DNA of 64,000 nucleotides from Georgenia subflava (GTDB lineage: Bacteria > Actinomycetota > Actinomycetes > Actinomycetales > Actinomycetaceae). Below, in pieces: positions 13,425 to 64,000 of the stretch. The stretch covers positions 372,001 through 436,000 of the forward strand of contig NZ_VUKD01000001.1 in NCBI RefSeq assembly GCF_009193155.1, written 5' to 3'. Each line of letters opens with the position of its first letter. Positions within the stretch are counted from its first letter, which is position 1. Under the pieces are notes generated by a model that saw only the letters and a program-made list of their open reading frames with translations, searched no databases and was not told where the DNA came from. The translations under genes were made by a program, and so were the position numbers.

Positions 13425-14636
13425 CTACGAGGCTCCTGGCGCCGTCGCGCCCCGCAGCCGGCGCTGCTCGAGCTCCCAGTACTCGATGTCGAAGGCCTGC
13501 CCCTCGGTCACCGTCCGGTACCCGCCGAGCCGCTCGGCGGCGGCGATGATGCGGATCGTGTGCCGGTAGATGTCCATCACGGCGTGCGCGGTCTTCGCGT
13601 CAGGGCCGGTCGTGACCAGACCGAGCTCGGGATCGAGGATGACGCGCGGGGTCGGGTCGAGCATGACGACCCCCGGTGAGCGCTGTGCGTGGCGCTCGAA
13701 GTAGTCGACGTAGTCGCTGACGTAGCGGGCCACGTCCCGGCCGAGCATCGGTACCCGCTTCGTGCGGATGACGTGCTCGAGCGTGGTGGGCCCCTGCTGC
13801 GACACCACCGGGAGGTCCTCGCGGGCGACGAAGTGGCGGACCGCGGCGTCGGTGCACACCGCCACCGACAGCCCTCGCCCGGCGTGGCGGTCCAGCTCCT
13901 CGCGCAGGTCCGCCGGGACCAGCGCCGGGGCGTCGAGCTCCGCGAACGGACGCGTCAGGGGTGCCGCCTCTCGGGCGAGGAAGTCCTCGGCCCGCTCGAC
14001 CAGCTCGACGTGGCGGTCGTACGCGTCGGAGACGTTCTCACCCATCGTAAAGAGCCCGTGGTGCGCGAGGACGATGGCCGTGGGGCGCTCGTCCCGGCGC
14101 TCGTGCCAGGCGGCGGACGCCTGCACCGCCAGGTCGAAACCGGGCATCACGTACGGCACGACGATGACGTCGTCGCCGAGCACGTCCGTCACGAGGTCGA
14201 GCCCGTGCACCGTGTCCGTGAGCGCCACGATCGCGTCCGCGTGGGTGTGGAGCACGGAGCGGAACGGCAGTGCGTGGTGCAGGAGACTCTCGATCGTCGG
14301 CGCCGGTGAACCCTCCCGGCTCGCGTCCTCGTACCCGGCCATCATCTCCAGATCGCCGAGCCGGGGGCCTGCGAGCATCGCCGCCAGCCGTGCCCGGTCG
14401 AGCTGGACCAGCCCCTCCGCGTCCAGGCTGCCGAGGTCGAAGCCCGAGGCCTTCGCCCAGAGGTCGTCCGCGGTCTTGACCGAGGTGTTGCCGCCCCCGT
14501 GCAGCACGAGGAAGGGGTCGCGTCCGAGCAGCCGGGAGGCGTGCAGCGTCTCGGCCCGGCCCCGTCCGGCCGACTGTTCCGCCTGTGCGGTCAGATCGAT
14601 CCCGGTCGGCGTCCCCCACCGCATCAGCCGGCGCAC
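13425..14636 (-). CDS. Class II (zinc) aldolase/adducin family protein
   Basis: A 403-residue protein of the class II aldolase family, close in layout to the N-terminal aldolase half of rhamnulose-phosphate aldolase/dehydrogenase fusions. Features are HGGGNTSVK (substrate phosphate loop), the zinc ligands in HTHADAIVALTD and the third His in LAHHGLFTMGEN. The GTG at 14636 is chosen for the AAGGAGAACAG in front of it. Such enzymes cleave ketose phosphates to dihydroxyacetone phosphate and an aldehyde. It is the last gene of the Lsr-type set, 105 bp after lsrF behind a hairpin, so expression may be lower or separate. A class II aldolase is not part of the enterobacterial Lsr pathway. Confidence 0.85.
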   Translation of the reverse strand: MRRLMRWGTPTGIDLTAQAEQSAGRGRAETLHASRLLGRDPFLVLHGGGNTSVKTADDLWAKASGFDLGSLDAEGLVQLDRARLAAMLAGPRLGDLEMMAGYEDASREGSPAPTIESLLHHALPFRSVLHTHADAIVALTDTVHGLDLVTDVLGDDVIVVPYVMPGFDLAVQASAAWHERRDERPTAIVLAHHGLFTMGENVSDAYDRHVELVERAEDFLAREAAPLTRPFAELDAPALVPADLREELDRHAGRGLSVAVCTDAAVRHFVAREDLPVVSQQGPTTLEHVIRTKRVPMLGRDVARYVSDYVDYFERHAQRSPGVVMLDPTPRVILDPELGLVTTGPDAKTAHAVMDIYRHTIRIIAAAERLGGYRTVTEGQAFDIEYWELEQRRLRGATAPGAS

Positions 14637-14705
14637 CTGTTCTCCTTCCACGGGACGGCACACTGCGTCCACCATAGGCAACCGTCGTCCCCGTCGAGGA
14701 CGCGG

Positions 14706-14736
14706 CGGTGTGCCCGCCGCGCGGACGGGCACACCG
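14706..14736 (-). terminator. Hairpin between lsrF and the class II aldolase gene
   Basis: Perfect 11-bp stem CGGTGTGCCCG/CGGGCACACCG with a 9-nt loop, starting 6 bp after the lsrF stop codon. It could stop or attenuate transcription before the aldolase gene. Confidence 0.6.
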
Positions 14737-14741
14737 GTCGG

Positions 14742-15629
14742 TCAGTCCTGCGCGCCGCCGGAGAGGTTGGCGTACATGGCTGACGCGTCGTCGGCGCTCA
14801 TCCCCGTGTGGACGACGGCGCGAACGGCCTGGATCATCGCCTTCGGGTTCTGCCGCTGGAAGATGTTCCTCCCCATGTCCACCCCCGCCGCGCCCTGGTC
14901 GATGGCGCGCCGGGCCATGGTCAGCGCGTCACGCACGGGCAGCTTCTTGCCCCCGGCCATGATCACCGGCACCGGGCAGGCCGAGGTGACCTGGTCGAAG
15001 CCCTCGTCGCAGTAGTAGGTCTTGACCATCTGCGCACCGAGCTCGGCGATGATGCGGGTGGCGAGACCGAGGTACCGGGCGTCGCGGACGAGCTCCTTGC
15101 CCACCGCGGTCACGCCGAGCACCGGGATGCCGTGCTGCAGCCCCGCGTCCACGAGCCGGGTCATGTTGTGCACGGACTGCGTCTCGTTCTCGCCACCGAC
15201 GAAGACCTGGACCGCCACGGCGCTGGCGTCGATCCGGACCGCGTCGGAGATGTCCATCGCGATGCGCTCGTCTGAGAGCTCCTTGAGGATCGAGGGGCCG
15301 CCGGACGCGCGCACGACCAGGGCGTTGGTGCTGCTCGGCGGGATGACGGTGCGGATGATCCCGCGGGTGGCCATGAGGGCGTCTGCCTCCGGGGCGAGCG
15401 GCACGATGTTCAGGTCCACCCGCTCGAGGCCGCTGGTCGGGCCCTGGAAGTACCCGTGGTCGAAGGCCAGCATGACCGTCTTGGCCGAGTCGGCGTCGAA
15501 GATGCGCCCGAGCCGGTGCTTCATGCCGAAGTCGAGGCTGGCCGCGCCCTTGACGTGGAACCCTCCTGACTCCTGCGGGGTGTCGACGTGGTAGTGCTTC
15601 GCGGCGAGGTTGCCTTCGAGGTCAGCCAT
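14742..15629 (-). CDS. lsrF: LsrF-type 3-hydroxy-5-phosphonooxypentane-2,4-dione thiolase
   Basis: A 295-residue class I aldolase-fold protein that closely follows E. coli LsrF (291 residues) throughout. Landmarks are KTVMLAFDHGYFQGPTSGLER, DALMATRGIIRTV, GVTAVGKELVRDARYLGLAT, AQMVKTYYCDEGF, PVIMAGGKKLP and AAGVDMGRNIFQ. LsrF transfers an acetyl group from the isomerised phospho-AI-2 to coenzyme A, giving acetyl-CoA and dihydroxyacetone phosphate. The Lys of KTYY and the Asp/His of FDHG are in place. It lies 50 bp behind the cupin gene in the lsrR-K-cupin-F unit. A related DeoC/LacD aldolase role is possible, but the match is specific to LsrF. Confidence 0.9.
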   Translation of the reverse strand: MADLEGNLAAKHYHVDTPQESGGFHVKGAASLDFGMKHRLGRIFDADSAKTVMLAFDHGYFQGPTSGLERVDLNIVPLAPEADALMATRGIIRTVIPPSSTNALVVRASGGPSILKELSDERIAMDISDAVRIDASAVAVQVFVGGENETQSVHNMTRLVDAGLQHGIPVLGVTAVGKELVRDARYLGLATRIIAELGAQMVKTYYCDEGFDQVTSACPVPVIMAGGKKLPVRDALTMARRAIDQGAAGVDMGRNIFQRQNPKAMIQAVRAVVHTGMSADDASAMYANLSGGAQD

Positions 15630-15679
15630 CTGTCAGGTTTCCGTTTCTCTCAGTGCGGTACGGGGGGTAGGGCGGGGCG

Positions 15680-16066
15680 CTAGCGCGCGCTCTTCACGAC
15701 GTCCGGGACCGGCTCACCCGGGGTCCACGGCACCTGCACGCCGTCGTCCGGGTCGTACGGCGCCTTGACGAACAGCGCACGGAAGTCGGCGTCCGACTCG
15801 TTGACGAAGTAGTGCATCTCGCCGGGTTCGCACCGGTAGACGTCGCCGGCGCGGACCGTGTAGCTGTCCGTGCAGTCGATCCACATGGTCGCCTCCCCCT
15901 CGAGGACGACGAACGTCTCCTCGATCGCGGCGTGGTAGTGGTTCGACGCGTCGTCCCCGGGGCGCAGGCGCACCACCCCGAAGTCGGTGCGCGGGCCGCG
16001 CAGCAGGTACCCGGGGCCGTACTCGCCGAACCGGTACGGCGCGTCGTCGACCTTGCTGGTCTCCAT
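15680..16066 (-). CDS. Cupin protein in the position of LsrG
   Basis: A 128-residue cupin whose metal ligands are visible in NHYHAAIEETFVVLEG (His, His, Glu) and PGEMHYFVNES (final His). It lies 18 bp after the kinase gene and 50 bp before lsrF, so it is almost certainly co-translated with the AI-2 pathway enzymes. In enterobacteria the step between LsrK and LsrF is isomerisation of phospho-DPD by LsrG, a small ferredoxin-fold protein that is absent here. A metal cupin is chemically able to isomerise such a hydroxy-ketone, so a non-homologous LsrG replacement is a reasonable hypothesis, not an established fact. The ATG is preceded by GAGGATCGAGAAC. Confidence 0.8.
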   Translation of the reverse strand: METSKVDDAPYRFGEYGPGYLLRGPRTDFGVVRLRPGDDASNHYHAAIEETFVVLEGEATMWIDCTDSYTVRAGDVYRCEPGEMHYFVNESDADFRALFVKAPYDPDDGVQVPWTPGEPVPDVVKSAR

Positions 16067-16084
16067 GTTCTCGATCCTCTTCTC

Positions 16085-17641
16085 TCAGGTTCCGGGGGCT
16101 TGCCACATGGGGGTGGTGACTCCCGCTGTCATCAGTTCGCGCTGGGCGGTGTACGCCTGCGCCCACCGCTCGATCACCGGCGCGTACGCCTCGTGGTTGT
16201 CCGCCACCGGCTCGACGTCGCGGTCCCAGCGGATCCAGCTCGCGGCGGCCTCCGCCGGGCCCGCGTACTCGCCACCGGCGCTGGCGGCGCAGGCGGCGGC
16301 ACCCTGGGCGGTCGCCTCCGTCACCACCGGGATCCGCAGCGGTCGACCGAGGACGTCGGCGACGATCTGGGTCCACACCTCGCTCCTCGCGGATCCTCCC
16401 GCGAGGACCACCTGCTCGGGGTGCGCGCCGCTGAAGTCCTCGACGAGGGCGAGGTTGGCGCGGGCCACGATCGCCGCGTTCTCGAGCAGCGAGCGGAACA
16501 TCGCGGCACGGAGCCGGGCGCCGCCGTCGAGCGGCAGGTTGAGGAACGACGGGGCCGCGTGCTTCCAGCGCCGGTAGTTCATGACGTCGGAGAAGATCGG
16601 GATGACGCCGTCGGACCCGATCGGGATCTCGGCGGCGGCCTCGGCGAGCAGGTCGAGGGGGTTGCGGTTCTGCTCGGTCGCGGCGGCGACCTCGGGGCCG
16701 GCGAAGGTGTCGCGGAACCACCGCACCGCGGTGCCCGCGTGGAACGCGATGGCCTCGGCCTGCCACAGTCCGGGCACCGCCGCGGCGTTGACCCGCACCC
16801 GCATCTGCGGATCCGTGACCGGCTCGGCCAGGTTGACCATCTGCTGCCAGAAGGTGCCGGCGACGACGAGTGCCTGCCCGGGCTCGACCAGGCCGACCCC
16901 GAGGGCGGCGAGCTGTGCGTCCCCACCACCGACAACGACGAGGGTCCGCGTCGACAGGCCGGTCTCCTCGGCCGCCCGGGAGGTCACGGGGCCGAGGACG
17001 GTCCCCGGTTCGACGACCTGGGGCAGCAGGTCGCTGCGCAGGCCGCAGACGGCGGCGAGCTCGGCGTCGGCGTCCCGGGTGGCGAGGGACAGCAGGCCGG
17101 ACGTGGAGCCGTTCGAGGGTTCCATCGCCCGGACGCCGGAGAGCCGGTACAGGACCCACTCGCTGAGCATGAGTACCGTGCTGGCGCGTTCGTAGAGCTC
17201 GGGCCGGTGGCGTGCCAGCCACAGCAGCCGGGGCTGGGCGGCAAGGGCGAAGGTCTGGCCGGACCGGTGGTAGACCAGCTCCTCCACGGTGGCGTCCCCG
17301 GCGAGCTCGGCGACCTCGGCACCCGCCCGGGCGTCGACGTTCGCGCAGGCCCAGATCTCGTCGCCGGCGGCGTCGAGGACCACGAGCCCCTCGCGCATCG
17401 ACGTGGCGCTGACGGCCCGGACGTCCGTGGGCCCGAGGCCGGCGGAGCCGAGCGCCTCGCGCACGACCTCGACGACGAGCGACCAGTTGCGCTCGACGGC
17501 GAATCCCATCGACGCCGGCACACCCGGCTCCGGGTCGTGCTCCCACGACCGGCTGGCCGTCGCGGCCACGGCGCCCGCGGCGTCGAAGACCACCGCGCGC
17601 ACCGATCCGGTGCCGGCGTCGATCGCTACGACATGACTCAT
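16085..17641 (-). CDS. lsrK: LsrK-type autoinducer-2 kinase (FGGY family)
   Basis: A 518-residue FGGY-family kinase that tracks E. coli LsrK along its length. Shared blocks are AIDAGTGSVRAVVFD (phosphate-1 loop), SATSMREGLVVLD, WACANVDARAG, GQTFALAAQPRLLWLARHRP, VVGGGDAQLAALGVG, GTFWQQMVNLAEPVTDPQM, GVIPIFSDVMNYRRW and the C-terminal MWQAPGT. LsrK phosphorylates imported DPD at C5, trapping it and making the inducer that inactivates LsrR. The start MSHVVAIDAGTGS at 17641 is set by homology and GGAAGAGGAACGAG upstream; the frame is open far upstream but without homology. It lies 43 bp after lsrR and 18 bp before the cupin gene. Confidence 0.92.
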   Translation of the reverse strand: MSHVVAIDAGTGSVRAVVFDAAGAVAATASRSWEHDPEPGVPASMGFAVERNWSLVVEVVREALGSAGLGPTDVRAVSATSMREGLVVLDAAGDEIWACANVDARAGAEVAELAGDATVEELVYHRSGQTFALAAQPRLLWLARHRPELYERASTVLMLSEWVLYRLSGVRAMEPSNGSTSGLLSLATRDADAELAAVCGLRSDLLPQVVEPGTVLGPVTSRAAEETGLSTRTLVVVGGGDAQLAALGVGLVEPGQALVVAGTFWQQMVNLAEPVTDPQMRVRVNAAAVPGLWQAEAIAFHAGTAVRWFRDTFAGPEVAAATEQNRNPLDLLAEAAAEIPIGSDGVIPIFSDVMNYRRWKHAAPSFLNLPLDGGARLRAAMFRSLLENAAIVARANLALVEDFSGAHPEQVVLAGGSARSEVWTQIVADVLGRPLRIPVVTEATAQGAAACAASAGGEYAGPAEAAASWIRWDRDVEPVADNHEAYAPVIERWAQAYTAQRELMTAGVTTPMWQAPGT

Positions 17642-17684
17642 GCTCTCGTTCCTCTTCCCGTTGTGCCGACGGACCTCTCCACGG

Positions 17685-18659
17685 TCAGTCGACGGTGACT
17701 CCCTCGGCGGCGAGCAGCTCCCGCGCGACCTCCTCGTTGGTGACGAGCACGTCGAGGTACCCGCCGCGGAGCGCTCCCCGCACCGCGGCGATCTTGTTCG
17801 ACCCGCCCGCCACGCCGATGACGTTGCGGATGCCGCGGAGCTCGTCGATCCCGATGCCGATGCGGCGGTCGTGGATCGGCAGGTCGACCACCTCGCCGTT
17901 CTCGTCGTAGAAGATGCCGAGGATGTCGCCGACGGCACCGGCACCTGCGATGACCGCCAGCTCCTCGTCGGTGACGTACCCGAGCTGCGCGAGGGTGGCC
18001 TGGCCGGTGACCGCACCGATCCCGACGAGCGCGTGGTCGCTGCGGTGCGAGAGCTCCATGACCTCACGCACGCCGTTCTCGCGCCGCAGTGCCTCGGCGA
18101 GCGTCGACGAGGACACCACGATGGGGGCCGGGATGACAGCGTCGGTGCACCCTTCGGCGGCTTCGCCACGCACCCGGCGGAGCGTGCTGACGTAGGCGTT
18201 GACACCGCCGGTGAGGGTCACCGTGCTGACCCGCGTCATGAGGTCGACGGCAACGAGGTCCACCGTCGCCTGGACGGTCTCGCCCCAGCCCATCGCGAGC
18301 ATCTCGCCCGGCTTGAGGTGGTTCTGGAGGTACTGGGCACCGCCGCGCGCGAGCCTCCGGTTGATCGCACTCTGGTCGAGGTTCGTGCCGTTGAGCGCGG
18401 GCGGGACGAGCGCCTCGCGCAGGCCGAACGTCTCCTTGAGCTTGCGTCCCACCTTGAACGCGTCGAAGTGGTCCGACCCGATCGTGAACGAGACGATCCC
18501 GCTCTGCCGGCACCGCTCGAGCAGTCGCCCGGCGGAGGGCCGCGACACGGCGAGCCGCCGTGCGATCTCGTCCTGGGTGAGCTGGTCGACGTAGTAGTAC
18601 CACGCGACCCGGAGGAGCTGCTCCTCCGCCTCCCAGTCCTCGCCCGCTCTCTTGAGCAC
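17685..18659 (-). CDS. lsrR: LsrR-type SorC/DeoR-family repressor
   Basis: A 324-residue SorC-family regulator. An N-terminal helix-turn-helix (QLTQDEIARRLAVSRPSAGR, about residues 23-42) is followed by the sugar-phosphate-sensing domain with GWGETVQATVDLV and VTLTGGVNAYVS. E. coli LsrR (317 residues) is released from DNA by phospho-AI-2. The GTG at 18659 is chosen because AGGAAGG lies before it and homology begins there; the longer in-frame start would run through three palindromic repeats that belong in the promoter. The gene heads the lsrR-K-cupin-F unit, behind a terminator hairpin that closes lsrACDB, so it probably has its own promoter. Confidence 0.88.
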   Translation of the reverse strand: MLKRAGEDWEAEEQLLRVAWYYYVDQLTQDEIARRLAVSRPSAGRLLERCRQSGIVSFTIGSDHFDAFKVGRKLKETFGLREALVPPALNGTNLDQSAINRRLARGGAQYLQNHLKPGEMLAMGWGETVQATVDLVAVDLMTRVSTVTLTGGVNAYVSTLRRVRGEAAEGCTDAVIPAPIVVSSSTLAEALRRENGVREVMELSHRSDHALVGIGAVTGQATLAQLGYVTDEELAVIAGAGAVGDILGIFYDENGEVVDLPIHDRRIGIGIDELRGIRNVIGVAGGSNKIAAVRGALRGGYLDVLVTNEEVARELLAAEGVTVD

Positions 18660-18679
18660 GGCCCCCAGCCTTCCTGTCG

Positions 18680-18754
18680 TATCCCGTGGTGGCCACGGGT
18701 TCTGCATCCCGTGGTGGCCACAGGTTCTGTATCTCGTGGTGGTCACGGTTCTGC
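18680..18754. promoter_or_regulatory. Three tandem palindromic operators before lsrR
   Basis: Three 24-26-bp units in tandem (about 18680-18705, 18706-18730 and 18731-18754). Each contains CCCGTGG-TGG-CCACGGG or a close variant: unit 1 is perfect, unit 2 has one mismatch and unit 3 three. They fill the gap between the lsrB terminator and the lsrR start. The regular spacing suggests cooperative binding of a dimeric regulator. The motif differs from the TGAGC-type palindromes before lsrA. Confidence 0.65.
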
Positions 18755-18757
18755 CGG

Positions 18758-18786
18758 GGGTGGGGCGCGCTCGGCGCGCCCCACCC
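18758..18786 (-). terminator. Terminator hairpin after lsrB
   Basis: 13-bp perfect stem GGGTGGGGCGCGC/GCGCGCCCCACCC with the loop TCG, starting 9 bp after the lsrB stop. It has no U-tract. It separates the transporter unit lsrACDB from lsrR-K-cupin-F. Confidence 0.7.
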
Positions 18787-18794
18787 GGGGCCGG

Positions 18795-19853
18795 TCAGAA
18801 GTCGAAGTCGTCGATGTTCTCCGCGGTGAAGACGGTCCGCTCGGGCATGACGATGATGCCGTTGCCGTCCGCCTCGTAGTCGTAGCCCTGGACCGAGTTC
18901 GGCTGCACCTCGAGCGTGCCGAAGCCCTCCGCCTCGAAGGTGTCGCCGACGTTGAGCTCGTTGCCCTCGAGCAGGTGCGCGGCCACGGCGACGGACAGGG
19001 CGCCCTGCTGCTCGACGTCCCAGAGCGCGAAGCGGTCGAGGGTGCCGTTCTCGATGTACCCCTTCATCACGTTCGGCGTTGAGAAGCCGACGAGGATGAT
19101 GTCCTCGCGGCCGAGGTTCTCGAGCGCCTGCGCGGTGCCCGGCAGCGCGTTCGCGTCGGGCGCGATGATGGCCTTGAGGTCAGGGTTGGCGTTGATGAGC
19201 GCCTCGGCCTGCTGCACCGCGAGCTCGGTCTGGTTCTCCGAGAAGATGGTGTCGACGATCTCCCAGCTCGTGTCGTCGGCGATGATGCCCTTCGCGACCT
19301 CGGCCCACTGGTTCTGGTCGGTGACGGTGGGGCTGGAGTAGTGGAAGGCGACCTGGGCCTCCTCGTCGGCCGGGAGGTTCTCGGTGACCATCTCCACCAG
19401 CAGGGAACCCAGCTGGTCAGGGGTGCCCTGGCTGATGTAGAACTGCCGGCACTCGGGGTTGGTGTCCGAGTCCCAGGTCAGGACCACGGCGTCCTGCTCC
19501 ATCGCCGTCTCGAGCGACTGGCACAGGCCGTCCGGGGAGACGGACGAGACGATCAGCGCCTCGTACCCCTGCTGGGTGTAGGAGTTGATCAGCTCCACCT
19601 GCTTCGCGACCGAGGCCTCGGGCGATCCGAGGTACTGGACGTCCAGGCCGTAGTCCGGCCCGGCAGCCTCGGCACCCGCGCCGCCCCCCTCGAAGAAGCC
19701 GACACCGGTCAGCTTGGGGATGAACGCCACCTTGGCCCCGTCGCCGGAGCCGGTCGCGCCCTCGTCTCCTTCGCCGTCGGCCGAGGAGCACGCCGAGAGG
19801 GCGAGCGCCGCGACGGCGATTCCTGCCACTGCGAACTGCAAGCGATTCTTCAT
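18795..19853 (-). CDS. lsrB: LsrB-type autoinducer-2 binding lipoprotein
   Basis: A 352-residue periplasmic-binding-protein-like lipoprotein; the signal peptide ends in the lipobox LALSAC (Cys 22), with an acidic Gly/Asp linker after it. It aligns without difficulty to E. coli LsrB (340 residues). All six residues that contact AI-2 there (K35, D116, D166, Q167, P220, A222) have identical counterparts here: K47 in FIPKLTGVGFF, D128 in LTWDSD, D179 and Q180 in TVTDQNQW, and P232 and A234 in IAPDANALP. The start at 19853 is set by GGAAGG and the signal peptide. It lies 93 bp behind lsrD and ends the transporter unit. Confidence 0.94.
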   Translation of the reverse strand: MKNRLQFAVAGIAVAALALSACSSADGEGDEGATGSGDGAKVAFIPKLTGVGFFEGGGAGAEAAGPDYGLDVQYLGSPEASVAKQVELINSYTQQGYEALIVSSVSPDGLCQSLETAMEQDAVVLTWDSDTNPECRQFYISQGTPDQLGSLLVEMVTENLPADEEAQVAFHYSSPTVTDQNQWAEVAKGIIADDTSWEIVDTIFSENQTELAVQQAEALINANPDLKAIIAPDANALPGTAQALENLGREDIILVGFSTPNVMKGYIENGTLDRFALWDVEQQGALSVAVAAHLLEGNELNVGDTFEAEGFGTLEVQPNSVQGYDYEADGNGIIVMPERTVFTAENIDDFDF

Positions 19854-19946
19854 CGAACCTTCCAATCGTCGCGCGGCGCCGCTGTGGCGGGCCGCTGCTG
19901 CCTGCACGCACCGCCTACGCGGTGCGTGTCTCTCTCCCCGCCGGCC

Positions 19947-20999
19947 TCAGGGGGCCGAGGCGGGGACTCCTTCTGTGGCCGGCCGGGCCGCGCCGTCGCC
20001 GATCCGACGTGCGCGCCTGTTCTTCCACGACTCCGACAGGTGGCCGGTCCACCAGCGGAGGCTGGCCACCAGCACCAGCGCCGCCCCGGTGGCGACCGCC
20101 ACCTGGTTCTCGGACAACCCCATGAACCGCAGGCCCTGCTGCAGGAACCCGATGACGAACGTCGCGATGACGACGCCGCCGATGCTGCCCTCGCCGCCGT
20201 ACATCGACACGCCGCCGATGACGACCAGCGTGAGCGTCGGCATCAGCAGACCTGCGCCGATGTCCGCACGGGCCGACCCCACGTAGGACGTCAGGAGCAC
20301 CCCGACGAGGCCGGCAGCAAGGGCGGTGAGCAGGTACGTGCTCACCAGGACCTGCTGCGAGCGGAACCCCGCGTACCGGGCAGCCTGAGGGTTCGCACCG
20401 ATCAGGCGTGCCTGCCGGCCGAAGGCGGTACGCCCGAGCAGGACGGCTGCCGCGACCGCGAGGACGGCGAAGATCACCAGCATGTTGGGCAGGCCCAGGG
20501 TCTCCCCGCCGGCCAGCTCGAGGAAGCTCTCCGGAAGGCCGGAGATGCCCTCGAAGGACGACACGCCGCCGAGCCCCGATGCGCCGAGCGCCAGCCCGGC
20601 GAAGAGGAACTGGGAGCCGAGCGTGATCACCATGGGCTGCGCACCGGTGATGAGGATCGCGGAGCCGTTGACGACGCCGGCGAGGGCGGCGGCGAGCAGC
20701 CCCACCAGCACGGCGAGCCAGATGTTCAGCCCCGTCTGGAACGTCACGCCGGTCACGATCGCGGCGAGCGAGGCGACCGAGCCGAAGCTGATGTCGATCC
20801 CGCCCGTCATCATCACCACCGCCAGGGGCAGGGCGACGATGCCGAGGTAGACGAAGTCGGACATGGCGAAGAGCAGCCGGTCGGGGTCGATGAACCGGGG
20901 GTTCATGGCACCGAAGAAGGCGAGCTCCGCGACGAGGACGAGGACGAGTGCGGACTCCCACCGCGGCAACGCGCGCACGCGGCTCAGGACGGCGTTCAT
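19947..20999 (-). CDS. lsrD: LsrD-type AI-2 ABC transporter permease
   Basis: A 350-residue permease of the ribose/AI-2 (CUT2, BPD_transp_2) type with eight to ten hydrophobic segments. Family landmarks are VMMTGGIDISFGSVASL, GVVNGSAILITGAQPMVITLGSQ, ANPQAARYAGF and GGVSMYGGEGSIGG. The ATG overlaps the lsrC stop as ATGA, so the two are translationally coupled and probably form the heterodimeric channel. The C-terminus is a short basic tail ending WKNRRARRIG plus about 20 further residues. Assignment as D rather than C follows gene order and length. Confidence 0.88.
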   Translation of the reverse strand: MNAVLSRVRALPRWESALVLVLVAELAFFGAMNPRFIDPDRLLFAMSDFVYLGIVALPLAVVMMTGGIDISFGSVASLAAIVTGVTFQTGLNIWLAVLVGLLAAALAGVVNGSAILITGAQPMVITLGSQFLFAGLALGASGLGGVSSFEGISGLPESFLELAGGETLGLPNMLVIFAVLAVAAAVLLGRTAFGRQARLIGANPQAARYAGFRSQQVLVSTYLLTALAAGLVGVLLTSYVGSARADIGAGLLMPTLTLVVIGGVSMYGGEGSIGGVVIATFVIGFLQQGLRFMGLSENQVAVATGAALVLVASLRWWTGHLSESWKNRRARRIGDGAARPATEGVPASAP

Positions 21000-22003
21000 C
21001 GGACCTCGCTCTCGAGACTCGGGGCAGGCGCTGTGTGCCGTGCTCGGTAGCGGTCGACGAGGCGCCGGCGGTCGAGCGCCGCCCGCACCCGCGCGTCGGC
21101 GAAGAGGGCAACCAGCAGGATCGCGCCGATCACGGTGTCCGCCCAGAACCCGGGTATCCCGAGGAAGCTCAACGAGCTCGTCGCCGTGGTGATGAAGACG
21201 GCACCGACGACGGCACCGGCGATCGTCCCGACCCCACCGGTGAGCGCGACGCCCCCGATGACGGCCGCTGCGATCGCGCGCATCTCGATGCCCTGGCCGG
21301 CCTGGTTGCTGATCGATCCGATCTGGGCGAGGAACACCAGGGCGGCGGCCGCCGCGAGCAGGCCGGACGCGGCGAAGGCGAAGATGACCACCGCGTTGGT
21401 GCGCACCCCGATGAGGTGGGCGCCCCCCAGGTTGTCCCCCACCGCGTACACGTGCCGACCGACGCGGGTGCGGGACATCAGGACGGCGACGGCGACGAGC
21501 ACGAGGAGTGCACCCCACACGAGCACCGGCAGCCCGAGCAGCTCCAGCGTGCCGATCCCGCGGTAGGCGGAGGGGATGTTCTCCACCGAGTACCCGCCGG
21601 TGATGAGGAACGAGATGCCGCGGTACGCGGCCAGCGTGCCGAGCGTCATGACGATCGACGGCACGTGCCCGTACGTGACGCCCAGCCCGTTGACCGCACC
21701 GAGCACGGCGCCGAGGACGAGCACCGTGAGGACCGCGAGCGGGATCGGCACACCGTCCCGCAGCATCAGCGCCCCCACGATCCCCGACAGGGCGAGCGTC
21801 GAGCCGACCGAGACGTCGATGTTCCGGGTCATGATGACGATCGCGCTGCCGGCCGCGAGGAGGGCGAGGATCACCGCGGAGTTGGCGATACGCGCCGGGT
21901 TCCCGCCGGTGACAAAGCTCGGGTGGACGATCGCGACGACCGCGACGAGAAGGACGACACCGAGCACGGTGACGGCCTCACGGTGCTTGAGCAGCTGCCT
22001 CAT
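20996..22003 (-). CDS. lsrC: LsrC-type AI-2 ABC transporter permease
   Basis: A 335-residue CUT2 permease with the expected motifs IVIMTRNIDVSVGSTLALSG, GAVNGLGVTYGHVPSIVMTLG and GGVALTGGVGTIAGAVVGAV. The start MRQLLKHREAVTVL at 22003 is chosen because GAGGAGG lies at the end of lsrA and the start is separated from the lsrA stop by one base; longer in-frame starts lie inside lsrA. The N-terminus even resembles the E. coli LsrC start in having a short basic helix before the first membrane segment. It overlaps lsrD by 4 bp. Confidence 0.88.
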   Translation of the reverse strand: MRQLLKHREAVTVLGVVLLVAVVAIVHPSFVTGGNPARIANSAVILALLAAGSAIVIMTRNIDVSVGSTLALSGIVGALMLRDGVPIPLAVLTVLVLGAVLGAVNGLGVTYGHVPSIVMTLGTLAAYRGISFLITGGYSVENIPSAYRGIGTLELLGLPVLVWGALLVLVAVAVLMSRTRVGRHVYAVGDNLGGAHLIGVRTNAVVIFAFAASGLLAAAAALVFLAQIGSISNQAGQGIEMRAIAAAVIGGVALTGGVGTIAGAVVGAVFITTATSSLSFLGIPGFWADTVIGAILLVALFADARVRAALDRRRLVDRYRARHTAPAPSLESEVR

Positions 22004-22004
22004 G

Positions 22005-23516
22005 TCAGGCGACCTCCTCGATGGTCCCGAAGGCGCCGTCCCGGACGGCGGCAAGGGTGATCTGCTCCGCGGGAAGGTGACCGGTCACCCGGCCGTCGCG
22101 CATCACGAGGACCCGCGTGCTGAGCTCGACGATCTCCTCGAAGTCCGAGGAGATGAGCACGACGGCGAGCCCCTGCTCGGCCAGGTCCCCGACGAGCCGG
22201 TAGAGGTCGGCCCGCGCGGCCACGTCGACGCCACGCGACGGCTCGTCGAGGATGATCACCTTCGGCTCCGGTGCGAGCGCCTTGGCGAGGGAGACCTTCT
22301 GCTGGTTCCCGCCCGAGAGGTTGCCGACCTTGCGGCTGCGGCTGCCTGCCTGGAGAGCGAGGCCCTGCGCGAACCGGTCCGTGACCTGGTGGTCGAGCTC
22401 CGCACGGATCAGGCCGGCGCGGGTGATCCGGTCCATGACCGTCGAGCTGCAGTTGTCGACGATCGTGCCGAGCAGGAAGACACCGTGGGCGTGCCGGTCC
22501 TCGGGCACGTAGGACAGCCCACGGTCCAGGGAGTGCCGTGGCGTCCGGTCCGCGTACTCCTCGCCGTCGAGGATCACCGTGCCCGTTCCCGGCCGGAGCC
22601 CGTAGACGGTCTCGGCGAGCTCGGTGCGTCCGGTCCCGACGACACCGGCGATGCCGAGGACCTCGCCCGGGAAGACCTCGAGGTCGACGTCCAGGAAGCC
22701 CTGGCCGGTCAGTCCGCGGACCTCGAGCGCCGGACGCGCCCCCGCGTGGGCCGTCGCCCGCGCGCGCGGAGCCGCCTCGTGCCGCACGGTGTCCGGGACC
22801 ATGGCCCGGACCAGGTCGTCGACCGACACCTCGTCGGTCCGCGACTGGAGCACCATCGCGCCGTCGCGCAGCACTGTGACGCGGTCGCACAGGGCGAAGA
22901 TCTCGGACATGCGGTGCGAGACGTAGAAGATCCCGACGCCGGTGGCGGCGAGCGACCGCAGCTGGGTGAAGAGCTGGTCGACCTCGCGGGCCGTGAGCGC
23001 GGCCGTCGGCTCGTCCACGATGAGCAGCCGCGCCTCGCGCAGGATGCCGCGGACGAGCTCGATGAGCTGCTGGTCGGAGATCGAGAGCTCGCCCGCCCTC
23101 GCGTCGAGGTCGATGGGGTGGGCGAGGGAGTCGATGACCTCCTGGACGCGTCGCCGGCCGACGCGCTGTCCGCCGAGGGAGAGCGTGACGTTCTCGAGCA
23201 CCGAGAGGTTCGGGAACAGCTGGGGCTCCTGCGGCACCATGTACACCGCGTTGGCGTGGGCGGCCCGCGGCGACAGCTTCTTGACCTCGCGACCACCGAT
23301 CACGATCCGACCGGAGTCCGGTGCGACCACACCGGTGATGGCCTTCATCAGTGTCGACTTGCCGGCCCCGTTCCCGCCGACGAGGGCGTGGATCTCCCCG
23401 GGCTGGACATCGATGTCCACGCCCTTGAGCACGGGGACACCGCCGTAGGACTTCCAGAGTCCGTCCACCACGGCGACCGGCTCGCGCCGATGGTGGCTGG
23501 TGCTGTTCTGCAACAC
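22005..23516 (-). CDS. lsrA: LsrA-type AI-2 ABC transporter ATPase
   Basis: A 503-residue protein with two fused ATP-binding cassettes, as in LsrA (511) and RbsA. Cassette 1 has GGNGAGKSTLMKAITG, the signature region LSISDQQLIELVRGIL and Walker B LLIVDEPTAAL. Cassette 2 has the usual degenerate Walker A (GVVGTGRTELAE), LSGGNQQKVSLAKAL and VIILDEPSRGVD. The GTG at 23516 has GAAGGGTCGAG before it. First gene of the operon; two TGAGC-type palindromes lie 24-56 bp upstream, where a SorC-type repressor would block the promoter. The degenerate signature of cassette 1 is normal for this subfamily. Confidence 0.9.
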   Translation of the reverse strand: MLQNSTSHHRREPVAVVDGLWKSYGGVPVLKGVDIDVQPGEIHALVGGNGAGKSTLMKAITGVVAPDSGRIVIGGREVKKLSPRAAHANAVYMVPQEPQLFPNLSVLENVTLSLGGQRVGRRRVQEVIDSLAHPIDLDARAGELSISDQQLIELVRGILREARLLIVDEPTAALTAREVDQLFTQLRSLAATGVGIFYVSHRMSEIFALCDRVTVLRDGAMVLQSRTDEVSVDDLVRAMVPDTVRHEAAPRARATAHAGARPALEVRGLTGQGFLDVDLEVFPGEVLGIAGVVGTGRTELAETVYGLRPGTGTVILDGEEYADRTPRHSLDRGLSYVPEDRHAHGVFLLGTIVDNCSSTVMDRITRAGLIRAELDHQVTDRFAQGLALQAGSRSRKVGNLSGGNQQKVSLAKALAPEPKVIILDEPSRGVDVAARADLYRLVGDLAEQGLAVVLISSDFEEIVELSTRVLVMRDGRVTGHLPAEQITLAAVRDGAFGTIEEVA

Positions 23517-23539
23517 GGGCTCGACCCTTCACAACTGTG

Positions 23540-23572
23540 TGAGCATCTGATCATCGCGTGAGCGATTGCTCA
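23540..23572. promoter_or_regulatory. Paired SorC-like operators upstream of lsrA
   Basis: Two 14-bp palindromes 19 bp apart: TGAGCATCTGATCA (one mismatch, 23540-23553) and TGAGCGATTGCTCA (perfect TGAGC-N4-GCTCA, 23559-23572). They lie 24-56 bp upstream of the lsrA GTG, overlapping the expected promoter. Spacing and position fit LsrR binding, which is inference. Confidence 0.6.
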
Positions 23573-23816
23573 GAGCATGGCACACAGACGCAGGGCGGTG
23601 GGAGATGTCGCTGATAACGATCCGGTCACGGAGGAATTGATCGGCACGGGTCGCAGGCCCCAACGGCGAGCGCGTCGGGCCGCGACCCCGAGTCGTTCCC
23701 GGCGGGCGCGACGCGGGTGCCGGGGGGCGCTTCGGCAGGAACGTCCGAGCCAGGTTCGGCGACCGCCCCACTGGCGCGCGGAACTTCCGTACGGACTATC
23801 CAGACGGACATTCCGT

Positions 23817-23980
23817 AACCGCGCCGGTCCTGCCGCCCACAACCGCGCTGGTCCTGCCGCCCACAACCGCGCCGGTCCTGGCGCCCACAACCGCGCCGGT
23901 CCTGCCGCCCACAACCGCGCCGGTCCTGCCGCCCAAACCCGCGCCGGTCCTGCTTCCCACAACCGCGCCGGACCTGCTTC
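23817..23980. repeat. 24-bp tandem repeat, about 6.8 copies
   Basis: Head-to-tail copies of a 24-bp unit beginning AACCGCGCCGGTCCTGCC at 23817, 23841, 23865, 23889, 23913 and 23937, with a partial copy at 23961-23980. Copies differ at one to three positions. The array lies in the 496-bp gap between lsrA and the glycosylphosphotransferase gene. It is open in several frames because 24 is a multiple of 3, but no ribosome site or homology supports a protein. The rest of the gap (23577-23816) shows nothing recognisable. Confidence 0.9.
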
Positions 23981-62400: not shown

Positions 62401-63477
62401 TCAGGTGGATGACCTCGCACGGGAGGCGAAGCGCTGCTGGAGGAGGACGGCGATCACGATGATCGCGCCCTTGGCCAGCTGCTGGGCGGAGGGGGACAGG
62501 TTGTTCTGGATGAAGATGTTCGTCAGGACGGCGAAGACGAGGACACCGAGGACGGTGCCGACGATCGTGCCGCGTCCGCCGATGAGGAGCGTCCCGCCAA
62601 CCACCACCGCTGCGATGGCGTCGAGCTCGTAGAGGAGGCCGTTGGTGGAGGTGCCGGCGGTGGTCCGGCCGAGCATCATGAGCGCGGCGATGCCGGCGGT
62701 GAGCCCGGAGAGCGCGAAGACCCACATGGTGTGCCGCTGCACCTTGATACCGGCCAGCCGGGCGGCCTCCGGGTTGCCGCCGACGGCGATCGTGCGCCGC
62801 CCGAACGTCGTGCGAGCGAGCAGGACCCACCCGCCGACCGCCACGAGGAAGAAGATCCAGACGATCACCGGGACGCCGATGACGTCGGCCCGGAAGAAGT
62901 CGAGGAAGCCCTCGACCGTGACGATCTGGCTGCGGCGGTTTGAGATGATCTCCGCCAGGCCCCGGGCGGCGACGAGCATCGCGAGGGTCGCGATGAACGA
63001 GACGACCCGGCCGTAGGCGACGATCACCCCGTTGACGAGCCCCGCGGCGGTGCCGACGGCGAGCGCGGTGAAGACCATGACGACCCAGTGGGTGTCCGTC
63101 GCCATCGTCTGGGTCGCCAGCGTCGACGCCCATACGGTCGCCAGCCCCATGACGGAGCCGACCGACAGGTCGATCCCGCCGGCGGTGATGACGAACGTGA
63201 CACCGATGCTGATGACGCCGATGACGGCGGCCTCGCGCAGGATGACCATGACGTTGTCGATGCTGACGAAGCGCTCGCCCGAGGTGAGGACACCGATGAG
63301 CAGGAGCGCGGCCAGGGCGATGATCAGGCCCAGGCTGTGGCCCAGGCCCCCGAGCCGGAACGTGGGCAGGCGCCCGCTCCGCTGCGGGGGTGGGCTGAGG
63401 TCGCGGTTGCTCGGCGGCAGCCCGGTCTCGGGAGCGCCGCCGGCCGGGACGGTGCCCGCCGACTGGTTCTCGGTCAT
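62401..63477 (-). CDS. Ribose-type ABC transporter permease
   Basis: A 358-residue CUT2 permease. A cytoplasmic Pro/Gly-rich start of about 45 residues is followed by eight or more membrane segments. It carries VTFVITAGGIDLSVGSVMGLA, GLVNGVIVAYGRVVSFIATLA, GGNPEAARLAGIKV and VVGGTLLIGGRGTIVGTV. GGAAGGAACC precedes the ATG, which overlaps the ATPase stop by 4 bp. Partner of the binding protein downstream and the ATPase upstream. Confidence 0.92.
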   Translation of the reverse strand: MTENQSAGTVPAGGAPETGLPPSNRDLSPPPQRSGRLPTFRLGGLGHSLGLIIALAALLLIGVLTSGERFVSIDNVMVILREAAVIGVISIGVTFVITAGGIDLSVGSVMGLATVWASTLATQTMATDTHWVVMVFTALAVGTAAGLVNGVIVAYGRVVSFIATLAMLVAARGLAEIISNRRSQIVTVEGFLDFFRADVIGVPVIVWIFFLVAVGGWVLLARTTFGRRTIAVGGNPEAARLAGIKVQRHTMWVFALSGLTAGIAALMMLGRTTAGTSTNGLLYELDAIAAVVVGGTLLIGGRGTIVGTVLGVLVFAVLTNIFIQNNLSPSAQQLAKGAIIVIAVLLQQRFASRARSST

Positions 63478-64000
63478 GCGTGGGTTCCTTCCATGACGAG
63501 GTCGAGCACGCGGTGCTCGTCGATCTGGTCCGCCGGGCCGGCGTGGGCGACGTCGCCGTCGGCGATGACCAGGACGTGGTCGGCGAGGCCGAGCACCTCC
63601 TCGATCTCGCTGGAGACCACGACGATCGCGGCTCCCTCGGCGGCGAGCCGGCGGACAAGGGTGTAGATCTCGGCGCGGGCGCCGACGTCGACGCCCCGGG
63701 TGGGCTCGTCCAGCAGCAGGACGTTGCAGCCGTGGACGAGCCAGCGGGCGAGCATCGCTTTCTGCTGGTTGCCGCCGGAGAGGGTGCGGGTGGTGCGTCG
63801 CGGGTCGGCCGGGGCCAGCTGGAGCGCCGTGATCTGCTGCTCGGCGGCGGCGCGCTCGGCACGCTCGTCGAGGAAGCCGCCACGGGCGAACCGCCCGAAG
63901 GTGGACAGGGTGATGTTGCGGAAGACGGGCTCGTCGAGAAGGAGCCCCTGGCTCTTGCGCTCCTCCGGTGCCAGGCCGATCCCCGCGTCGACCGCGGCGG
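63474..64000 (-). CDS. Ribose-type ABC transporter ATPase, 3' part only
   Basis: The last 175 residues of a sugar ABC ATPase; the start lies beyond the right edge. The segment is the second cassette of an RbsA-type double ATPase: GLAPEERKSQGLLLDEPVF, the signature TLSGGNQQKAMLARWL, Walker B VLLLDEPTRGVDVGARAEI and the switch region VVVSSEIEEVLGLADHVLV. It overlaps the permease start by 4 bp, making it the first visible gene of the importer operon. Confidence 0.92.
   Translation of the reverse strand, partial: AAVDAGIGLAPEERKSQGLLLDEPVFRNITLSTFGRFARGGFLDERAERAAAEQQITALQLAPADPRRTTRTLSGGNQQKAMLARWLVHGCNVLLLDEPTRGVDVGARAEIYTLVRRLAAEGAAIVVVSSEIEEVLGLADHVLVIADGDVAHAGPADQIDEHRVLDLVMEGTHA

Follow-up and report, generated by a model that had tools for sequence, protein, structure and literature searches.

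Does the actinobacterium Georgenia subflava take up the signal autoinducer-2 (AI-2) through a true Lsr system, and what would act on the phosphorylated signal in an operon that has no gene for LsrG? Both questions are raised by a minus-strand run of genes at positions 13425–23572 of a 64,000-nucleotide stretch of G. subflava DNA (assembly GCF_009193155.1, contig NZ_VUKD01000001.1, positions 372,001 to 436,000), the whole of which we call the window. Many bacteria share this signal. For actinobacteria the published picture is unsettled (PMC2561040 versus PMC12268683).

Judged from its sequence, the locus is, very probably, an operon for genuine AI-2 uptake, and what speaks for this is its gene content, the conserved gene order, the ligand-site residues of LsrB, a conserved double palindrome before lsrA, and the presence of luxS and pfs. 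The fuller reading, a true Lsr operon with AI-2 uptake, phosphorylation, control by LsrR and a modified breakdown in which a cupin protein stands in for LsrG, we consider probable. What makes the system interesting is that LsrG is missing and a cupin stands where it would be: the locus is best read as a new Lsr variant, with uptake and phosphorylation predicted and the reaction of the cupin proposed.

Gene content, ligand-site residues and probable operator

The operon is transcribed in the order lsrA, lsrC, lsrD, lsrB, lsrR, lsrK, cupin, lsrF and class II aldolase and ends at 13425 (Table 1). Neighbouring genes overlap or are at most 93 nt apart with the starts chosen in our analysis. An earlier note on this DNA had placed homologues of LsrA, C, D, B, R, K and F here and on this strand, and all seven are found. 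It passed over the cupin in the place of LsrG, the class II aldolase (13425–14732) as last gene and the fact that 23572 is the end of the double palindrome. Three of the proteins exceed the curated cut-offs of their NCBIfam equivalogs, namely LsrB (480 bits against 384), LsrK (692 against 528) and LsrF (458 against 297), and lsrA, lsrC and lsrD share one operon with lsrB, as expected of an Lsr uptake system. The order from lsrA to the aldolase is kept in all six genomes that carry the operon, namely that of the window and five other actinobacterial ones, from five genera in all.

Since LsrK is less telling than LsrB, the case for AI-2 rests on LsrB, the whole gene set and luxS. The structure-solved relatives closest to the window LsrB are LsrB proteins, first SmLsrB (3ejw, E = 2.8e-121). 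A tree built from 23 proteins places the LsrB of the six actinobacterial genomes with those of E. coli, S. meliloti and Rhizobium (support 98/99). E. coli RbsB and XylF stand apart, as do 12 weaker relatives of LsrB from the same order; long outgroup branches (RbsB, XylF and others) were flagged by the program in our trees. Ten of the 12 weaker relatives were scored against the LsrB and RhaS families, and eight of these exceed the cut-off of the rhamnose-binding RhaS equivalog while two lie below both cut-offs.

The six AI-2-contact positions named in the earlier note (K47, D128, D179, Q180, P232 and A234) are indeed kept and read KDDQPA in 9/9 aligned LsrB proteins. Residue numbers count from the ATG at 19853, so that K47 is residue 65 of the longest open reading frame and equals K35 of E. 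coli. All eight RhaS equivalogs read KDNQPT, that is, four of the six are shared, and the remaining four weaker relatives read KDNLQT (twice), ADNMIS and KETHSS. The KDNQPT proteins belong to loci L124, L125, L127, L132, L138, L139, L144 and L149. A RhaS-type rhamnose importer was considered and rejected, the window LsrB scoring 194 bits against the RhaS cut-off of 342 and lying outside the clade of the eight RhaS equivalogs. A generic sugar importer is disfavoured by the LsrB tree, the ligand-site residues and the RhaS scoring, and the preference of the earlier note for an AI-2-type Lsr over a generic pentose importer is in keeping with the equivalog scores, the tree and the residues. AI-2 is in all likelihood the ligand of this operon.

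The origin of the signal can be sought in the same cell. luxS lies at G000:C3:1027168–1027596, on the same contig as the window (C3:372001–436000), and is adjoined by pfs at G000:C3:1027689–1028348. The earlier note had rightly seen no luxS in the window and suggested that the cell may scavenge AI-2 made by others; the search of the rest of the genome, which it had recommended, has now been run and found luxS with pfs beside it, and scavenging is therefore not supported here. Four of the six genomes with the full operon have luxS (that of the window, G764, G535 and G917), with pfs over its cut-off beside it in three (that of the window, G764 and G917), and luxS was not found in G618 and G448. 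With luxS and pfs present, the G. subflava cell is predicted to be able to make the signal that it takes up; the two relatives without luxS may live on the AI-2 of others. One actinobacterial genome would hold a full set for import, phosphorylation and repression together with luxS and pfs, set off from rhamnose importers by the six ligand residues.

All six genomes also share two 14-bp palindromes, 5 bp apart, before lsrA (consensus TGAGCANNYGCTCA), the first being imperfect in some, and a -10-like hexamer is seen by eye just before them. This double palindrome occurs at one place in the 64-kb window, both strands considered, and in none of 100 shuffles. With up to three mismatches allowed, five of the six genomes have a single such site each and G448 has two, 73 bp apart; the reversed control gives none. 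In Ruania, the seventh genome searched, it occurs once, with three mismatches and about 10 kb from lsrK, and single palindromes lie nearer to the lsr genes. With a matrix built only on the four genomes outside Georgenia, the window site reaches 30.9 bits and the next best place in the window 7.4. PMC11229326 describes SorC-family repressors as tetramers on paired half-operators and the half-operators of DeoR as containing TTGAACA. Because SorC repressors bind paired half-operators and LsrR is of that family, LsrR is a likely occupant of the double palindrome, and we think it very likely from the sequence that it acts at the palindromes at 23540–23572.

No second double site at up to three mismatches was seen elsewhere in the six genomes that would point to a wider LsrR regulon, and single palindromes are too common to judge one (6 at up to one mismatch versus 2.7 expected). 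Among the ten proteobacterial lsr loci, the promoters of eight were scanned and one match was obtained (Thalassospira, one mismatch), so that the motif as written appears to be actinobacterial.

The cupin in the place of LsrG

Measured against the enterobacterial lsr set (lsrACDBFG with lsrK and lsrR), the window operon has LsrF and lacks LsrG. A profile search of whole genomes with the LsrG family NF007791 found no match in any of the six genomes with the operon, and the E. coli LsrG protein, searched without a positive control, likewise matched 0/6. These protein and family searches thus give no sign of an LsrG hidden elsewhere in the genome. As the cupin matches only Cupin_2 and the genome contains no NF007791 match, the cupin is not an LsrG, whatever its activity.

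In the cupin, H43, H45, E50 and H85 are among 22 columns that are invariant in 21 relatives. Its AlphaFold2 model has a predicted local distance difference test score (pLDDT) of 94.1, and the best PDB matches by both sequence (E = 2e-12) and fold (3.6e-9) are archaeal phosphomannose isomerases. Moreover, the cupin stays close to lsrF. A profile search with the cupin alone (E ≤ 1e-15) yields six places in 5/392 genomes of the order, all six beside lsrF. Among the best 80 of 575 LsrF loci, a set that for this reason leans to relatives of the window, includes several short contigs and partly presupposes nearness to lsrF by its search route, 27 have the cupin at 21–212 nt from lsrF, and none has a match to E. 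coli LsrG at E ≤ 1e-5.

We compared 16 lsr loci with LsrB. Six are the actinobacterial ones and one is that of E. coli K-12; the other nine, all on plasmids, were hand-picked for taxonomic spread from 387 and 74 matching records. The actinobacterial loci combine cupin, LsrF and aldolase and have no LsrG (6/6). Alphaproteobacterial loci have LsrG and aldolase with neither LsrF nor cupin (8/8), and enterobacterial loci have LsrF and LsrG with neither cupin nor aldolase (2/2). Cupin and LsrG are thus mutually exclusive in 16/16 loci, LsrG occurring without the cupin in 10/10 proteobacterial ones.

From these elements we propose the following model. LsrB would bind AI-2 outside the cell, LsrACD would import it, and LsrK would phosphorylate it inside. 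Phospho-AI-2 would release LsrR from the double operator before lsrA, by which the operon, lsrR included, would be self-induced. The cupin would rearrange phospho-AI-2, that is, phosphorylated 4,5-dihydroxy-2,3-pentanedione (P-DPD), to the 2,4-dione form in LsrG's stead, and from this form LsrF would release acetyl-CoA and dihydroxyacetone phosphate. An auxiliary role may fall to the class II aldolase, which rhizobial lsr loci also have, while pfs and luxS would let the same cell make AI-2.

Whether the cupin performs the step of LsrG we regard as evenly balanced. More tentatively, phospho-AI-2 could have a second isomerase in this cupin, a metal enzyme unrelated to LsrG that replaced it when the Lsr importer and kinase joined a pre-existing actinobacterial cupin–LsrF module, which elsewhere would feed in other deoxy-sugar phosphates via the same dione intermediate. 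Conversion of P-DPD by a cupin, if true, would amount to a second kind of enzyme that clears phospho-AI-2. Among the matches listed in the open-licence literature, as far as titles, abstract openings and word counts show, no paper describes a cupin within an lsr operon, which does not prove that none exists, and none describes Lsr in Georgenia or Timonella.

Counter-evidence and rival explanations

Several observations weigh against a true Lsr operon with a cupin in LsrG's stead. Four of its proteins find the expected NCBIfam family as their best match and stay below its cut-off, LsrA just so (554 bits against 586), LsrC (277 against 388), LsrD (292 against 500) and LsrR (257 against 486). The genomes searched for the operator pattern are also those from which it was derived; the matrix scan used neither Georgenia sequence. 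Both rhizobial plasmids that served as positive controls for the LsrG profile matched, at 106 and 107 bits, which is below the cut-off of 135. E. coli, one of 14 standard control genomes, which did not include locus L119, gave no LsrG match; it seems to be a strain without lsr, since it is also without LsrB or LsrF over cut-off. The cupin fold is common (715 PDB matches at E ≤ 0.001), which makes the phosphomannose isomerase match weak. Further, the 16 loci represent three lineages, so the exclusion of cupin and LsrG reflects few evolutionary events and is suggestive, not proven.

The kinase is a less specific marker than its score implies. LsrK of the window is identical to the E. coli protein at nine of ten putative DPD-site residues, the ten being listed in PMC8016206, and of these ten positions two are kept in XylB, four in GlpK and one in RhaB. 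Kinases over the LsrK cut-off also occur in L048 (Ruania, 754 bits), L061 (625 bits) and L112 (575 bits), with no Lsr-type LsrB seen in the stretches read around them, and these three, as well as the kinases of Microbacterium and Agromyces, keep nine of the ten residues, too. L061 and L112 have LsrF beside LsrK, again with no LsrB in the stretch read, and L061 in addition has a gene of the ribulose-phosphate 3-epimerase family. LsrE of Salmonella is of this epimerase kind. The 16-row LsrK group of the kinase tree (87/99) includes kinases of other operons, its inner forks being open. The grouping of LsrB and LsrK with non-AI-2 sugar systems, which the earlier note had named as fatal to its view, did not occur in the trees, with the proviso that the LsrK group takes in these other kinases.

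LsrF keeps K203 and D57 of the E. coli enzyme, which PMC2728841 discusses as catalytic. A Geobacter LsrF scores 476 bits, over the cut-off, without Lsr genes in its 20.9-kb locus. LsrF copies from actinobacterial lsr and non-lsr loci fall into one clade (100/97) in which they are not resolved from each other, and relatives with at least 60% identity are found in many phyla. LsrF exceeds its cut-off in 7/394 genomes of the class, and the stretches read in the six other than that of the window, one of them a contig of only 10 kb, show no Lsr-type LsrB. LsrF as a marker of AI-2 systems is rejected on account of this wide phyletic spread and the Geobacter copy, and the family name LsrF is probably too narrow. 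LsrF relatives from many phyla, often adjoining a class II aldolase and with no Lsr genes in the locus, include L057, L070, L092, L101 and others. The end-to-end match of kinase and thiolase to LsrK and LsrF, to which the earlier note had appealed, is correct, but the names alone are weak evidence, given the Geobacter LsrF and the three LsrK loci without Lsr-type LsrB. For surveys that count Lsr systems, the names LsrF and LsrK on their own, and matches at four of the six LsrB residues, are consequently poor markers.

Among the rivals to a cupin isomerase, the one that survives best, itself unlikely, accepts AI-2 uptake and holds that the cupin opens or dehydrates cyclic phospho-AI-2 or cleaves the dione oxidatively, isomerization being left to chance or to another enzyme. 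The His/His/Glu/His set of the cupin is also found in dioxygenases and cyclases, and an enediol or β-dione is typical of the substrates cleaved by metal cupins such as acireductone dioxygenase and acetylacetone dioxygenase. The RemF cyclase and a putative cysteine dioxygenase are among the fold matches. Additionally, production of the AI-2 mimic 4-hydroxy-5-methylfuran-3(2H)-one (MHF) in yeast depends on a cupin, Cff1p (PMC8092285). However, oxidative cleavage would make LsrF needless, and LsrF lies beside the cupin in all six places that the cupin alone retrieves; moreover, the best matches of the cupin in both sequence and fold are isomerases. These two points favour the isomerase role.

Improbable, in our view, is a second rival: the substrate of import and phosphorylation would be an AI-2-like deoxypentulose or another sugar in place of AI-2, and cupin, LsrF and aldolase would form a general module for deoxy-sugar phosphates. 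This idea draws on the Geobacter LsrF, the mixed LsrF clade, the kinases found without LsrB and the other operons in which the pair occurs, observations some of which also count against the preferred reading. Loci of Actinotalea, Cellulomonas and Propionibacteriaceae have a class II aldolase gene ahead of cupin and LsrF, with neither LsrK nor Lsr-type LsrB. The Microbacterium and Agromyces loci have LsrF and cupin behind an LsrK-like kinase (448 bits against 528 in the one scored), some with another importer, and the four kinases aligned keep nine of the ten putative DPD-site residues. Because the cupin–LsrF pair occurs in operons without LsrB and LsrK or with an LsrK-like kinase only, it may serve another substrate. 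AI-2 as the ligand is upheld against this rival by the ligand site and clade of LsrB and by luxS and pfs in the same cell. Likewise, the aldolase adjoins lsrB in S. meliloti, the source of the closest solved relative of the window LsrB. Each of the eight alphaproteobacterial lsr loci examined, that of S. meliloti 1021 among them, holds a relative of this aldolase, which comes immediately behind lsrB in all six for which the gene order was read. A simple account would be that the Lsr importer and kinase were added to a cupin–LsrF module that already existed; all such operons would then meet at one dione phosphate.

These other operons are varied. Cupin–LsrF pairs by a class II aldolase, many with another sugar importer and none with an Lsr-type LsrK, are found in L033, L035, L037, L041, L044, L045–L047, L049 and L050. 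By family scan, the L033 aldolase is a bifunctional aldolase/dehydrogenase, and that of L041 is of similar length; the window aldolase resembles the N-terminal half of bifunctional aldolase/short-chain dehydrogenases. The Microbacterium and Agromyces loci, with no Lsr-type LsrB in the stretch read, are L056, L058, L060, L062–L064, L072, L076 and L083. In L186 (Ruania rhizosphaerae), LsrR, cupin, LsrF and aldolase genes face a gene for LsrK (754 bits) that has dehydrogenase and aldo/keto reductase genes behind it; there is no LsrB nearby, and an operator-type palindrome lies before lsrR.

Least probable of all is a cupin acting as regulator or binding protein, for example by presenting the ligand to LsrR, with LsrG dispensable here: in NCBIfam it matches, weakly, only the regulator PuuR, in the cupin part of the latter (25.6 bits against a cut-off of 211), but Pfam finds no DNA-binding domain in its 128 residues, and the metal-type residues are invariant in 21 relatives whose operons have different regulators (LsrR; a GntR protein in L033).

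Layout, spread and relation to known systems

The features of the operon are collected in Table 1. Two further observations concern its surroundings: a 24-bp unit is repeated in about 6.7 tandem copies at 23816–23976, between the lsrA promoter and the next gene, and a further sugar ATP-binding cassette (ABC) transporter, with low identity to LsrA and to an Lsr permease, lies at 62437–63983.

Table 1. Positions, strand and grounds of assignment for the lsr operon features in the window.
Feature	Position	Strand	Basis
Double palindrome TGAGCAATCGCTCA-N5-TGATCAGATGCTCA, probable LsrR operator, 23 nt upstream of lsrA	23540..23572	none	
lsrA, ABC transporter ATP-binding protein, 503 aa, GTG start	22005..23516	-	NCBIfam best match LsrA
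lsrC, permease	20996..22003	-	NCBIfam best match LsrC; start chosen in analysis
lsrD, permease	19947..20999	-	NCBIfam best match LsrD; start chosen in analysis
lsrB, predicted AI-2-binding lipoprotein	18795..19853	-	NCBIfam LsrB; signal sequence and LSAC lipobox (by eye)
lsrR, SorC/DeoR-type repressor, true start uncertain	17685..18746	-	NCBIfam best match LsrR; Pfam Sugar-bind PF04198
lsrK, predicted AI-2 kinase	16085..17641	-	NCBIfam LsrK over cut-off
Cupin, 128 aa, in LsrG's place, proposed phospho-AI-2 isomerase	15680..16066	-	Pfam Cupin_2 only
lsrF, class I aldolase-fold thiolase	14742..15629	-	NCBIfam LsrF over cut-off
Class II aldolase, start maybe 14675	13425..14732	-	Pfam Aldolase_II

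The operon is thinly spread. LsrB exceeds its cut-off in 4/396 genomes of the order, 275 of which hold some relative at E ≤ 0.001, in 2/9 genomes of the genus and in 3/221 of one family. Georgenia sp. EYE_87 (G764), of the same genus, has an LsrF with 92% identity to the window protein. A shared chromosomal neighbourhood with this genome was considered and is not borne out: a tblastx comparison of its operon flanks (3.1 and 3.9 kb) with the 64-kb window gave no piece longer than 150 residues, and the shorter scattered matches that exist reach at most 58 residues among the 15 listed. The lsr block may have moved as a unit.

Earlier surveys touch on actinobacteria to differing degrees. The main text of a survey of Lsr gene order (PMC3420918) holds no word starting with "actinobacter", and a 2008 survey reports no lsrB in two bifidobacteria (PMC2561040). 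A 2025 paper (PMC12268683) claims AI-2 binding by two LsrB proteins of Streptomyces coelicolor with four conserved sites, as well as LsrB receptors across actinobacteria; LsrK and LsrF have no occurrence in its main text. That work and ours both make a claim for an actinobacterial AI-2 receptor, there with four conserved sites and in the window LsrB with six of six. Since the eight RhaS equivalogs likewise keep four of six, the receptor of that paper and the window LsrB may be different proteins, as judged from the site count of the paper, and the published four-site LsrB of actinobacteria could be RhaS-like.

For the cupin, the nearest parallels are of two kinds. Yeast Cff1p has a cupin fold and a chemistry near to AI-2, likened here by description, but it makes MHF (PMC8092285), whereas the window cupin is proposed to act in the breakdown of phospho-AI-2. 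The archaeal cupin-type phosphomannose isomerases (PDB 7zvy, 7zvm) are about 26–31% identical to it in the fold matches and act on a different sugar phosphate.

Compared with E. coli K-12 (NC_000913), in which LsrA, C, D, B, R, K and F are likewise all present, the window proteins show identities of 42% (LsrA), 40% (LsrC), 45% (LsrD), 54% (LsrB), 50% (LsrK) and 56% (LsrF). While lsrK–lsrR is divergent from lsrACDBFG in E. coli, lsrR and lsrK follow lsrB inside one co-directional operon in the window, which is without LsrG and has gained a place for the cupin and the class II aldolase. S. meliloti 1021 pSymB, the LsrB of which is 58% identical to that of the window, and seven other alphaproteobacterial loci all share LsrACDB, LsrR, LsrK and the class II aldolase with the window. 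In contrast, these eight loci have LsrG without LsrF, whereas the window operon, without LsrG, carries LsrF together with the cupin.

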